35,514 nt of DNA from an uncultured bacterium (lineage in GTDB: Bacteria > Auribacterota > Erginobacteria > Erginobacterales > Erginobacteraceae): assembly GCA_937885075.1 (NCBI GenBank), contig CAKZYZ010000027.1, positions 1 to 35,514 of the forward strand, written 5' to 3'. The translations under genes and the position numbers were made by a program. Positions 7,789 to 32,342 of this stretch are shown here, one piece after another (within the stretch, counting starts at the first letter, position 1; each line of letters opens with the position of its first letter). The notes under the pieces are model-generated. The model was not told where the DNA came from and did no database searches. It was given only the letters and a program-made list of their open reading frames with translations.

Positions 7789-7970
7789 GTAAGCTTTCAG
7801 TGAACCCCGTCAACCCGTACTCATGGCCCGGTGCTGTAGCCGCGGTCGGTGACCGCGGAATTGTCGGTAGCCATCGTTGTCCGCGGTCACCGACCGCGGC
7901 TACAGGACGAAATGGTCTCCAACAAATTGTGAGTAACCATTAAGACAATTGGGTTCACTGAAAACCTATA
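7789..7970. repeat. MITE-like element, variant with GTAGCCGCGG core
   Basis: TIRs gtaagctttcagtgaacccc / gggttcactgaaa..., as at 13187 and 32229. Core TGTAGCCGCGGTCGGTGACCGCGG...CCGCGGTCACCGACCGCGGCTACA (7835-7904). Confidence 0.75.
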
Positions 7971-10525: not shown

Positions 10526-13054
10526 CTACTCCCCATCCGGTATTTTCAGCACCTGCCCAACCTTTAAGTTATGGGGACTCTTCAGCTTATCCCGATTGGC
10601 GTTAAAGATCGGTTTCCAGGGGGCGGGCCGGCCATAAACCTTCCGGGCGATCCGGGAAAGGGTATCCCCGGGACGGACCGTGTAAAGGGTATATCGGCCT
10701 TCATAGGCCTTCTCCGGTTTTGCCGGAGAGGGAGTTACTGTGATGGTAACGGCCGGCGAGAGGGTCGCCTCAGGGGCCGGAGCAGGAACAGCTTGCTCGT
10801 TCTCCCGGGCCGGAGGTTTTTCGGCTCCCCGGTTCAGGACCGTTTCAGCCTCTTCCGACTCTCCTCCGGCTAAAGACTGGTAAGCGTGGTAGCGATCCGA
10901 GATGGAGCGGACGTACTTCACCGGCTCGCTCCCCCGGACATATCCATAGCGCGCTTTATTGGAATATTCCGGCCGGGCCAGGAGCAGCATGGCTTTCTCC
11001 ACATTGTCGAACCAGGCCAGGGGATCCCAGCCTTTCTGACCGGCCAACCGCCGGGCATCGGCCAGATGACCGATCCCGGCATTATAGGCCGCCAGGGCGA
11101 ACCAGATCCGATTTAAGAGATCCGGCTTATCGTCAAATCGGTCCCGGACCCAGTCCATGTATTTTACCCCGGCATGGATGCCGATCTCCGGGTCTTCCAG
11201 CCGGGTAAAACCAAACTCTTTCCCGGTCTTCGGCATTACCTGCATCAATCCCTTCGCGCCTACCCAGGACTTAGCCTTAGGATTAAATTTACTCTCCTGA
11301 TACATCTGGGCGGCAATCAGCCGCCAGATAAAACCGTACTGCCCGGAATATTGTTTTATCAATTCGTCATAGGGCGAGATCTCCCCTCCCTTCATTACAG
11401 CATTATATTCTTCAATGACGTCGCGAACTTTTTTGGGGTTTTTAAAGTATTTCTTATAAGTAATATTATAAAATAGACCGCGATACTCTTTTTTGAGAAA
11501 TTTATTTATCGCGGCGAGGAGTTCGGTATCATCCTTACGGACCGCCCACCCCTGGGAGACCTTTCCACTGATCGGAAATATCCCCTTGATATCATCCCGA
11601 TAACTCTCTTCGATCGCCAGAATTTGAGTGTCCGCTACGGTCAGGTCATACTCACCGCGGGCCACCATATCGACAATCTCCTCCGTCTCCATCGTCTCCG
11701 GCGCATCACCTATAATCAGATCGACCCCTTCCGCCTTCAGTCTCTCCAGGCTGACCCGGTAAGAACTGCCGGGCCGGACCACCACGGTTCGGCCCTTCAG
11801 ATCTTTCGGAGTCTTCAGCTTGTTCTCATCGGATCGGGCCACCAGCATCTCCTCAGCATAGTGGGATGGCCGGGAGAATCGGATACCTTTCTCTTCCCGG
11901 TCTTTACTGATAGTCATAAAGGCGGCGATAAGATCACCCCTCCCCTCCAGGAGCCAGGGAATCAGCTGGTCATAGGCGGGGACCACTACAACTTCCAGGC
12001 GGAGATCGAGCTCTTCGGCAAACTTCTTCACCAATTCGTATTCAAACCCCAGCAGTTTACCCCGGAGGAGAAAGTAGTTGGTGGCGTTATTGGTGGTAAG
12101 GAGCCGGAGGGTTTTTCTTTTTTTAATACCGGGGAGATCATCCCGGTATATCTTATCCCGATGCCCGGATAATGCTTTTATTTCCAGAAAGTTGTTAACC
12201 GATTTAAGGAGTTCCGGGTTATCTAATCGAACCGCCCAGGCAATAGAACGCTCGCCGGTCAGATCTAAGACCGGCTTGATATCGCTCCGGTAAGTAAGCT
12301 CCACGTCCAGGACATTACTATCCGTGACCGCCAGATCCACAGTCCCCGAAGCCACCTGGTCCATAATCTCATCGTTGGTAAAACTTCCCGCCAGAATCCT
12401 AATCTTTATCCCCGGGTATTGCTTACGCAGCTCTTCCATAGTCTCCAGAAAAGAGGTCCCCTCCTGCGCCCCGACCGTCCGGCCGGAGAGATCGGATATC
12501 TTTTTAATCTTCTTCTCCTCCGCCCGGGCCACAATCTCTTCCCGGGAATAATCCAGGGGCAGAGTAAAAGATATCCGCTTTTTCCGGGAATCGGTAACGG
12601 TCAGGTTGGCGGCGATGATATCTCCCTCCCCTTTCAGGAGGGCGGGGATCAGCTCATTAAAATTATCGAGATATACCAGGACCGGTTTCAGTTTTAATGA
12701 CCGGGCTAAGTCCACCGCCAGTTCGCGACTTCGCTCTAGCGGAGACCCCTGCCGGGGAAGATAACTTCCCGGTTCACGCTGAATCAGGATACGGAGTTTG
12801 CCATCTTTCTTTATCCGAGCCAGGTCGCCGGTTTCGGCCAGGGAATTTCCCGCCGCGATGACTTCAACCGGCTCGGCTTTTCCACTATCCGACTTCTCCC
12901 CTTCCCCCCCGCAGCCCCCGGCTATAATAAGAGCAGCCAGGGCCAACCAGACCCGGATATAACTTCTATTTTTTCTCCTTCGATTGATACTTCGGGCAGT
13001 GGAGGAAAAGAGATTAGGTAAAGAATTAATTAATCTCATATCGGTACCTTTCAC
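10526..13054 (-). CDS. MltF-like lipoprotein: two tandem SBP_bac_3 domains, SLT lytic transglycosylase, LysM
   Basis: Lipobox-like LIIAGGCGG, two SBP modules (LARIKKDGKLRIL..., PGIKKRKTLRLLTT...), SLT motif 'AAQMYQESKFNPKAKSWVGAKGLMQVMP', C-terminal LysM 'YTVRPGDTLSRIARKVYGRPAPWKPIFNANRDKLKSPHNLKVGQVLKIP'. Confidence 0.93.
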   Translation of the reverse strand: MKGTDMRLINSLPNLFSSTARSINRRRKNRSYIRVWLALAALIIAGGCGGEGEKSDSGKAEPVEVIAAGNSLAETGDLARIKKDGKLRILIQREPGSYLPRQGSPLERSRELAVDLARSLKLKPVLVYLDNFNELIPALLKGEGDIIAANLTVTDSRKKRISFTLPLDYSREEIVARAEEKKIKKISDLSGRTVGAQEGTSFLETMEELRKQYPGIKIRILAGSFTNDEIMDQVASGTVDLAVTDSNVLDVELTYRSDIKPVLDLTGERSIAWAVRLDNPELLKSVNNFLEIKALSGHRDKIYRDDLPGIKKRKTLRLLTTNNATNYFLLRGKLLGFEYELVKKFAEELDLRLEVVVVPAYDQLIPWLLEGRGDLIAAFMTISKDREEKGIRFSRPSHYAEEMLVARSDENKLKTPKDLKGRTVVVRPGSSYRVSLERLKAEGVDLIIGDAPETMETEEIVDMVARGEYDLTVADTQILAIEESYRDDIKGIFPISGKVSQGWAVRKDDTELLAAINKFLKKEYRGLFYNITYKKYFKNPKKVRDVIEEYNAVMKGGEISPYDELIKQYSGQYGFIWRLIAAQMYQESKFNPKAKSWVGAKGLMQVMPKTGKEFGFTRLEDPEIGIHAGVKYMDWVRDRFDDKPDLLNRIWFALAAYNAGIGHLADARRLAGQKGWDPLAWFDNVEKAMLLLARPEYSNKARYGYVRGSEPVKYVRSISDRYHAYQSLAGGESEEAETVLNRGAEKPPARENEQAVPAPAPEATLSPAVTITVTPSPAKPEKAYEGRYTLYTVRPGDTLSRIARKVYGRPAPWKPIFNANRDKLKSPHNLKVGQVLKIPDGE

Positions 13055-13186
13055 CTGAATTCATAGTTAAAATGCCTTTCAACCCGGATCTATTCCCGCC
13101 CCGGCTTCGACACTGAAAAAGTAATAATCCCTAACGGAAGGCAGTGTATCACAAGAGAATATGATTTGCAAACTATCTTAACCAAT

Positions 13187-13301
13187 GTAAGCTTTCAGTA
13201 AACCCCGTTGCCTCGTGCTCGTAGCGGCGACCTTCAGGTCGCCATCGTGTGGCAGCCTAAAGGCAGCCGCTACGAGAGGATGGGGTTCACTGAAACCATA
13301 C
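13187..13301 (-). mobile_element. MITE-like element (~115 bp) with TIRs, nested hairpins and 7-bp flanking direct repeat
   Basis: gtaagctttcagtaaacccc ... ggggttcactgaaaccatac. Flanks AACCAAT at 13180-13186 and 13302-13308. Close in sequence to the reverse complement of 32229..32342. Confidence 0.85.
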
Positions 13302-13460
13302 AACCAATTTTCTTATTTTCTGGAGGGAAATGATTTATCGGGGGCGGACGTGAATCATCGGCGTCTATAGGACAGATAAAGAGCTGAAGAATTCCCCGAC
13401 CGGGTTACCCCCCGGATTATCCGGTGACCGGTGAAATTGATTGAAGGGCCCCTCCCTCAA

Positions 13461-15155
13461 TCAACGAGGGAGCGGGAGATCGCCGGAGTTACCAAAATAT
13501 ACCCGGGTTATACCCCGGATGCCCCAGAGACCGGAGGCCGGACGGAAGATTCCGATGGAGTTAAGGAGTTTGCCGGAGTAGTCCGCCCCGACCGGGAGGT
13601 CATCCGATGATCCGAAATAGGCCCGGGTAGCGTCACGGACCGCCCAGAGACCGGAGGCCGGTCGGAAAATTCCGGCCTCCCAGGTTCCGTTCCAGTCATA
13701 ATCCCCCGGGACCGGGCTGTCACCCGCCGCTCCGAAATATATCCGGCTGATATTCCTCATTGCCCAGAGGCCGGAGGAAGGCCGGAAGACGGCGATGTCT
13801 TTTTCTCCGCTCCCGGCATAATTACCGGGGACCGGACTGTCTCCGCTGCTCCCAAAATATACCCGGGTTACCCCCCGGATAGCCCAGAGGCCGGTTGAGG
13901 GACGAAATAGAGCGATATCCGCCGAACCATCGCCATCGTAATCTCCCGGAACCGCCTGATCCGACGGACCACCGAAGTAGGCCCGGGTAACTCCCCGGAT
14001 CGCCCAGAGGCCGGAGCCTTTACGGAAGATCCCTCCGTCGGAAGTCCCATCGCCGTTAAAATCCCCGCAGACGGGACTGTCGTCCGATCCCCCGAAATAA
14101 TACCGGCTGACCCCCCGGATCGCCCAGAGGCCGGTCGCGGGCCGGAAGAGTGCGACATCGGAACTGCCGTCACCATTAAAGTCGGCCGGAACCGTCTGAA
14201 GCAACCGTTCTATGTAATTGGTCACCAGAATTACCGGTTCGGCGGTGGCGGTGGAAAAAGCCGCTATCTCGGAAGCGTGGTTATATTCATCCAGATAATC
14301 CCCGTATGAAGTCAGATTAAGAGATCGCAGTTTTGCCAAAAGTTCCTGACACTGATCAGCCAGAGAGGGAAGTTCTCCCTGGCAATAGAGCGCGTAGATT
14401 GGAGGGAAAACTACTCCGGCCTGTATCTTGGTGGAGGGGGAAGCATTATCGAGTTCTGATTGGTTATTAAAACAACCCCCGTGAAAAGTAGGATTAAGAA
14501 TAGGGCAGTAATAAATTTTATCAAGATTTTTTAAATCATAAGGGGGGCTCATCGCCACCACACCTTTTATACCTGACCGGAGAGATTGATAGCTGGGATC
14601 TACCGCCAGCATCAGGGCCAGATGAGCACCGGCAGACTGACCGAAGTCAAAGATATTATTCGGATCGCCTCCGTTATCCGCGATATGATTAACCGTCCAG
14701 TAATAGGCATCAGCCACATCTTCAATATTGTCCGGCCACCAAGCGGCTTTCTCTGTGGTGCCGGCCAGGGTGACTTCATTAGCAGTAAGCCGGTAGTCAA
14801 TCACCACCGTAACCCACCCCTTATCCCCGGTCAGGGAGAGGGCCATATAGCTATAATGATCCCGATAGCCGGTAGTCCAGCCGCCGCCATGAATGAAGAA
14901 GACCACCGGCTGATTATTAAGAAGCACTCCTCCATCAGCGGCCCGAAAGATACTTAGCGCCCGGGCCTCATAGTTTTGCTTGCCATCCCGGCTGTCGTCT
15001 ATTAAAAAACTATCACCATAGACATAGTCCTTCCGATAAATAGAATATCGGGTATTTACTTCGGTCCAGGTCTGTTCCCCCCAATCCGCCGGCGCCGAAT
15101 TAACCAGAGAGATTGGCATAAAAAGAAGGGTGAGACTGATTATTATAGTTTTCAT
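13461..15155 (-). CDS. Secreted alpha/beta hydrolase (esterase/lipase-like) with C-terminal six-unit module
   Basis: Signal peptide, FIHGGGW oxyanion motif, DFGQSAGAHLAL nucleophile elbow, late His in YNHASEIAAF; six 'GLWAIRG...YFGG' units (13461..14186). Confidence 0.93.
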   Translation of the reverse strand: MKTIIISLTLLFMPISLVNSAPADWGEQTWTEVNTRYSIYRKDYVYGDSFLIDDSRDGKQNYEARALSIFRAADGGVLLNNQPVVFFIHGGGWTTGYRDHYSYMALSLTGDKGWVTVVIDYRLTANEVTLAGTTEKAAWWPDNIEDVADAYYWTVNHIADNGGDPNNIFDFGQSAGAHLALMLAVDPSYQSLRSGIKGVVAMSPPYDLKNLDKIYYCPILNPTFHGGCFNNQSELDNASPSTKIQAGVVFPPIYALYCQGELPSLADQCQELLAKLRSLNLTSYGDYLDEYNHASEIAAFSTATAEPVILVTNYIERLLQTVPADFNGDGSSDVALFRPATGLWAIRGVSRYYFGGSDDSPVCGDFNGDGTSDGGIFRKGSGLWAIRGVTRAYFGGPSDQAVPGDYDGDGSADIALFRPSTGLWAIRGVTRVYFGSSGDSPVPGNYAGSGEKDIAVFRPSSGLWAMRNISRIYFGAAGDSPVPGDYDWNGTWEAGIFRPASGLWAVRDATRAYFGSSDDLPVGADYSGKLLNSIGIFRPASGLWGIRGITRVYFGNSGDLPLPR

Positions 15156-31416: not shown

Positions 31417-31534
31417 GAGTTTAGAAGTTAGCTTTGCAATTGCGGGAGCAAATTATATCCGCAATTATCGGGAATGGGGGTCTCTTCCCACAGAAGTTTT
31501 GGAATTACGCACCAGGGAGAAACTTAGCGCTTGC

Positions 31535-31640
31535 AACACAACCTCGTAGCGGCTGCCTTCAGGCTGCCACACGATGGCGACCTGAATGTCGCCGCTACAA
31601 GCGCGGAGATAACGGGGTTCACTTAAAACCTACACATTAT
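31535..31640. repeat. MITE-like element, left-truncated copy
   Basis: ctcgtagcggctgccttcaggctgccacacgatggcgacctgaatgtcgccgctacaag...aacggggttcacttaaaacctacac; left TIR missing. Confidence 0.7.
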
Positions 31641-32228: not shown

Positions 32229-32342
32229 GTAAGGTTTCAGTGAACCCCGTCCTCTCGTAGCGGCTGCCTTTAGGCTGCCACACGATGGCGACCTGAAGGT
32301 CGACTCTACGAGCACGGAGCAACGGGGGCACTGAAACCTTAC
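32229..32342 (+). mobile_element. MITE-like element (~114 bp) with perfect 14-bp TIR ends and 8-bp flanking direct repeat
   Basis: GTAAGGTTTCAGTG...CACTGAAACCTTAC. Flanks AAAAATAC at 32221-32228 and 32343-32350. Confidence 0.9.

Follow-up and report, generated by a model that had tools for sequence, protein, structure and literature searches.

The non-coding element at 13187-13301 of the window, the 35,514 nucleotide stretch of DNA analysed here, is very probably a non-autonomous MITE with IS66-type ends that carries an interchangeable REPIN as cargo. The data presented establish a mobile frame with a fixed 8 bp target duplication, an empty site, IS66-like ends and a REPIN core that is modular. 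The enzyme held to act on REPINs is the HUH transposase RAYT, which is different from the IS66 machinery, and one small DNA appears to serve two unrelated transposition systems as substrate. IS-derived MITEs and REPINs are each already known; neither an IS66-derived MITE nor a MITE with REPIN cargo was found in the open-access literature.

The first-pass annotation had described a 115 bp, non-coding, MITE-like element with terminal inverted repeats, and its coordinates were right. The inverted repeats of the window copy are identical at 17/20 positions, AACCAAT stands on either side, and the element, which sits between two minus strand genes, overlaps no ORF of at least 60 aa. Nowhere else in the window does a 7 bp direct repeat directly border an inverted repeat matching at 16/20 or better with a spacing of 60-300 bp, and 20 shuffled windows contained no such site. 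The element, its neighbours and the other family copies in the window are as follows:

10526-13054, minus strand: 842-aa solute-binding/transglycosylase/LysM protein, neighbour of the element
13180-13186, unstranded: left target-site duplication, AACCAAT (7 bp, where the family normally has 8)
13187-13206, plus strand: left terminal inverted repeat GTAAGCTTTCAGTAAACCCC, common to the 192 genome matches
13207-13217, plus strand: long-arm frame GTTGCCTCGTG between terminal repeat and REPIN, from the frame comparison
13218-13276, unstranded: REPIN core (CTCGTAG...CTACGAG) made of two REP hairpins, inverted and each with a GTAG tag (halves 13218-13243, plus, and 13251-13276, minus)
13226-13243, plus strand: REP hairpin type A, GGCGACCTTCAGGTCGCC
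13251-13268, minus strand: REP hairpin type B, GGCTGCCTTTAGGCTGCC on the minus strand, one central mismatch
13282-13301, minus strand: right terminal inverted repeat, GTATGGTTTCAGTGAACCCC read on the minus strand
13302-13308, unstranded: right target-site duplication AACCAAT
13461-15155, minus strand: 564-aa esterase-like protein with FG-GAP repeats, neighbour of the element
7789-7969, plus strand: 181 bp copy with the same terminal repeats and another REPIN (type E, CCGCGGTCGGTGACCGCGG), target-site duplication 5/8
31518-31633, minus strand: degenerate copy keeping the REPIN and one terminal repeat
32229-32342, minus strand: second complete copy, 114 bp, with a perfect 8 bp target-site duplication AAAAATAC

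The interior had been described as an inverted pair with two hairpins in a cloverleaf-like fold. The pair CTCGTAGCGG/CCGCTACGAG is indeed present inside the element, and of the hairpins the first (GGCGACC-TTCA-GGTCGCC) is perfect while the second (GGCAGCC-TAAA-GGCAGCC) pairs with a central A-A mismatch, but the core they make up is a REPIN, which had gone unrecognised: GTAG precedes each of the two inverted hairpins of 13218-13276. A cloverleaf RNA is rejected, as the minimum-energy RNA fold is a single long hairpin (-67 kcal/mol, z = -9.2) and an Rfam search of the window returned no family at its gathering score. The statement that the window holds no transposase stands for the two families searched, IS66 and Y1, neither of which gave a match there. 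Among the neighbours, the 13461-15155 protein has in common with a protein of another locus (L079 2208-3383) an FG-GAP-like repeated tail and its motifs, whereas their N-terminal domains differ, being esterase-like in the former and, by eye, rhodanese-like in the latter, which suggests a reused C-terminal module.

The element belongs to a multicopy family. BLAST recovers about 45 close copies in its own genome and weaker ones in a further two genera of this bacterial family, and the end pattern GTAAGNTTTCAGTRAACCNCG, at up to two mismatches, gives 192 matches genome-wide against none for the reversed control; these end matches would put the family at roughly 100 copies in its own genome. Target sites were compared for 77 distinct two-ended copies from this genome and two relatives, the statistics covering the retrieved regions. 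The copies are 64-287 bp long, mostly 114-118 bp, and over the 8 flanking bases on each side 22/77 agree at 8/8 and another 18 at 7/8 (40/77 in total), where swapped flanks give a null of 0.06% for 7/8 or better. Repeat lengths other than 8 are not in excess among the 77 copies, and the target sites of the family have no strong consensus. The 7 bp duplication originally claimed thus holds for the window copy, which AACCAAT does flank, but not for the family, which duplicates 8 bp. Among the 77, a perfect 7 bp case is seen in the window copy alone, where it is probably an 8 bp duplication minus one base.

The 37/77 copies without a clear duplication are attributed to decay, recombination or assembly chimeras. 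Illumina adapter has been assembled onto contig ends beside several copies (L047 1-139, L026 left of 171, the right end of L108 and the left end of L208), so part of the apparently absent duplications are assembly artefacts. In one copy (L106 2344-2482, C203 from 19323 to the contig end) the end of a group II intron interrupts the element (Rfam RF00029, 56 bits). Two further copies, L033 (C15) and L088 (C417), have only one flank in common, and their inner cores are also unlike, which suggests that copies recombined at the element, that strains are mixed or that the contigs are misassembled.

An empty site was also found. The copy on contig C211 (L047 272-386) lies within a different repeat, flanked by the duplication TGTTTCGC, and its flanks, joined over one target copy, match contig C119 (L118 2028-2147) at 94% over 120 bp. 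On this alignment C119 can be called an empty site for the C211 insertion that is paralogous, not allelic.

The REPIN and the frame around it are separable. Within the MITE frame of the window element, five or more types of REP hairpin (A, B, C, D and E) occur in various pairings, and each main core type (A/B, C/B, D/D and E/E) has copies flanked by target-site duplications. Conversely, the REPIN unit is found with identical borders outside this frame (L090, L091, L093-L095, L200 and C10 of G001, a genome from a sister genus of the same bacterial family in which the MITE is also present). Different REP hairpins in one frame and one REPIN in different frames point to repeated exchange of cores. 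A copy in G002 has the same MITE ends and an 8/8 duplication and no REPIN. Two copies of 64/65 bp also have no REPIN (L099 and L102); these keep CTCGT...CG remnants and have no target-site duplication, and are read as probable deletions, not empty ancestors.

Furthermore, a second MITE family, with IS66-like ends (GTAACACTTTAGCTCTTTGAAATT) and perfect 8 bp duplications, is represented at five loci of the window's own genome, G000 (L229, L231, L233, L234 and L239, on C86, C267, C91, C124 and C193, respectively). It too contains REPIN cores, of A/B type in L229 and D-like in L231 and L234, and its first 15 bases agree at 13/15 with the ends of an IS66 element resident on C145 of the same genome.

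The enzymes expected to act on REPs are encoded in this genome, which has 20 Y1 transposase matches. Both Y1 genes tested with NCBIfam (C207 and C219) pass the cut-off for REP-associated tyrosine transposases, and they are bordered by REPs on both sides, of type D on C207 and type E on C219; both types also ride in MITEs. A RAYT gene bordered in this way by the window copy's A/B hairpins was not found. TnpA-REP has been reported to cleave REPs at CT (PMC8266576), with which the REPIN borders, CT...GTAG, agree, a point that is suggestive only. The reading frame of the C219 RAYT (L175 1578-2144) itself contains an in-frame type E REP.

The ends of the MITE, which begin GTAAGC, were compared with those of IS66 elements. 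Reference ends were obtained by an unbiased search for inverted repeats with 8 bp duplications around ten annotated IS66 transposases on plasmids, and 9/10 of these elements have exact 8 bp duplications and ends starting GTA. A published element, ISDge4 of the ISBst12 group, likewise has the end GTAACTGCTCAGCA and an 8 bp repeat (PMC12898284). A profile of the distant ends fits the MITE ends weakly beyond the initial GTA (p about 0.06-0.13); taken alone such a profile is weak evidence, and the IS66 case therefore rests on a near neighbour in G001 and on the 8 bp duplication. This neighbour is a complete IS66 element (C98, 828-3704) encoding TnpA, TnpB, a DUF6788 protein and TnpC, of which TnpA, TnpB and TnpC exceed their NCBIfam cut-offs. 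Over 20 bases the two ends of this element do not differ (GTAAGCGTCCGGTGAACCCA); they agree with the MITE end at 16/19 and with a MITE variant on C130 at 17/19. No other stretch among the 125,490 positions of the IS66 loci scored above 14/19, and the match lies exactly at the element borders.

The first-pass annotation had proposed looking for duplications at other copies, for empty sites and for a transposase whose ends match. Duplications and empty sites are borne out by the 40 duplicated copies and the paralogous C119 site, and the matching transposase in part, by the sister-genus IS66: an autonomous element with exactly these ends was not found in the genome of the window, which is 87% complete and in 434 contigs. 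As a direct partner, the IS66 resident on C145 was considered and rejected, its ends (GTAATAGTTTAGC) matching the window MITE family at only 8/15, and the unpaired ends inspected in this genome proved to be truncated copies, an adapter junction and the group II intron copy.

Several other accounts of the same DNA were weighed. The inner hairpins might simply belong to the MITE itself, with those found outside the frame being MITE remnants that have lost their ends, and no role for REPINs or RAYTs. The A/B cores are indeed found mostly within the frame, and several copies are remnants with one end left, but exactly the same core borders recur in unrelated flanks, including those of the second terminal repeat family with its own perfect 8 bp duplications, and the five or more hairpin sequences found in the frame are not simply interconvertible by point mutation. 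As RAYT genes are also bordered on both sides by types D and E, and the G002 copy combines the same ends and an 8/8 duplication with the absence of a REPIN, this account is quite improbable. An immobile frame, whose terminal repeats form a palindrome targeted by RAYTs for REPIN insertion, has a precedent in the REP dimers described as lying regularly inside palindromes in Anabaena variabilis and Halothiobacillus neapolitanus, in the relevant passage of PMC3733652. A stationary palindrome is nevertheless already contradicted by the 8 bp duplications around 40/77 copies, and would not be expected to come with an empty site, with an IS66 whose ends match or with a duplication-flanked copy lacking the REPIN, making this explanation highly improbable.

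It is also unlikely that the MITE belongs to another transposase family that duplicates 8 bp and that its likeness to IS66 ends is coincidence. Such a coincidence would sit well with the failure to find an autonomous partner in the window's own genome and with the poor fit of the distant profile beyond GTA, but it would have to explain a 16/19 match to both ends of a complete IS66, exactly at its borders, in a MITE-carrying genome of the same bacterial family, as well as the match of the second MITE family to the C145 IS66 at 13 of its first 15 bases.

Against the preferred reading, a MITE with IS66-type ends and REPIN cargo, stand the 37/77 copies with no clear duplication, the 7 bp duplication of the window copy, the weak fit of the distant profile, and the failure to find either an autonomous element with these exact ends in the window's genome or a RAYT bordered by A/B hairpins. 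For this reading the following mechanism is proposed. An IS66-type TnpA/TnpB/TnpC set acting in trans, as the first-pass annotation had supposed of the transposase, would recognise the GTAAGSTTTCAGTRAACCCC ends and insert the element with an 8 bp duplication, and the REPIN would be copied as cargo with each MITE transposition. The embedded REPIN could in principle also move alone through the action of a RAYT, and cores may be exchanged when a RAYT inserts them into the frame or when copies recombine. A fuller scheme can be put forward only tentatively: IS66-type MITEs could shuttle REPINs, with RAYTs inserting them into the centre of the palindrome, perhaps while it is single-stranded, the IS66 machinery copying the composite with 8 bp duplications, REPIN types being swapped between MITE families, and DDE and HUH enzymes jointly amplifying the result.

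The elements resemble several known systems. Like the IS66 family, which has TnpA/TnpB/TnpC, GTAA-type ends and 8 bp repeats, the MITE has a GTAAG start, an 8 bp duplication and, in the sister genus, the 16/19 match, but it has no coding capacity, is only 64-287 bp long and has an interior unrelated to IS66 genes. As in REPIN/RAYT systems, two inverted GTAG-tagged hairpins form one long hairpin and RAYTs are flanked on both sides by REPs of types that this MITE family carries; the REPINs of PMC3116915 are free-standing, whereas the REPIN of the MITE lies within a transposon that has terminal repeats and target-site duplications. MITECca01 of Cardinium, derived from an IS982 element (PMC9769881), is likewise short, non-coding and multicopy, with IS-like ends and a transposase supplied in trans; the MITEs described here differ from that type in their probable IS66 parentage and in having an interchangeable second mobile repeat as core. 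REP dimers within longer palindromes were reported in 2013, in a passage that gives no mechanism (PMC3733652). The GTAG-15 repeats of A. variabilis and CGTC-1 repeats of H. neapolitanus covered there are also REP dimers central in a longer palindromic frame; that passage calls the frames target palindromes and leaves target-site duplications unmentioned, whereas the frame here is a mobile element. For one case, the MITE family suggests why REP dimers such as those of that passage can be central in longer palindromes.

RAYTs cleave REPs in vitro, and the mechanism of REPIN dissemination has been described as unresolved (PMC8266576). REPINs carried inside a conventional transposon with diagnosable target-site duplications would have a second route of spread, and their movement would become datable against MITE insertions.

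Beyond these two MITE families, a third small repeat, with ends AGGCTGTCCGATAAA, lies inside the loop of REP hairpin A with CTTCAG duplicated, apparently at the same insertion spot in four copies (L118 1969-2138, L047 152-439, L202 and L205). The C211 copy of this repeat has a further IS66-type MITE nested within it.
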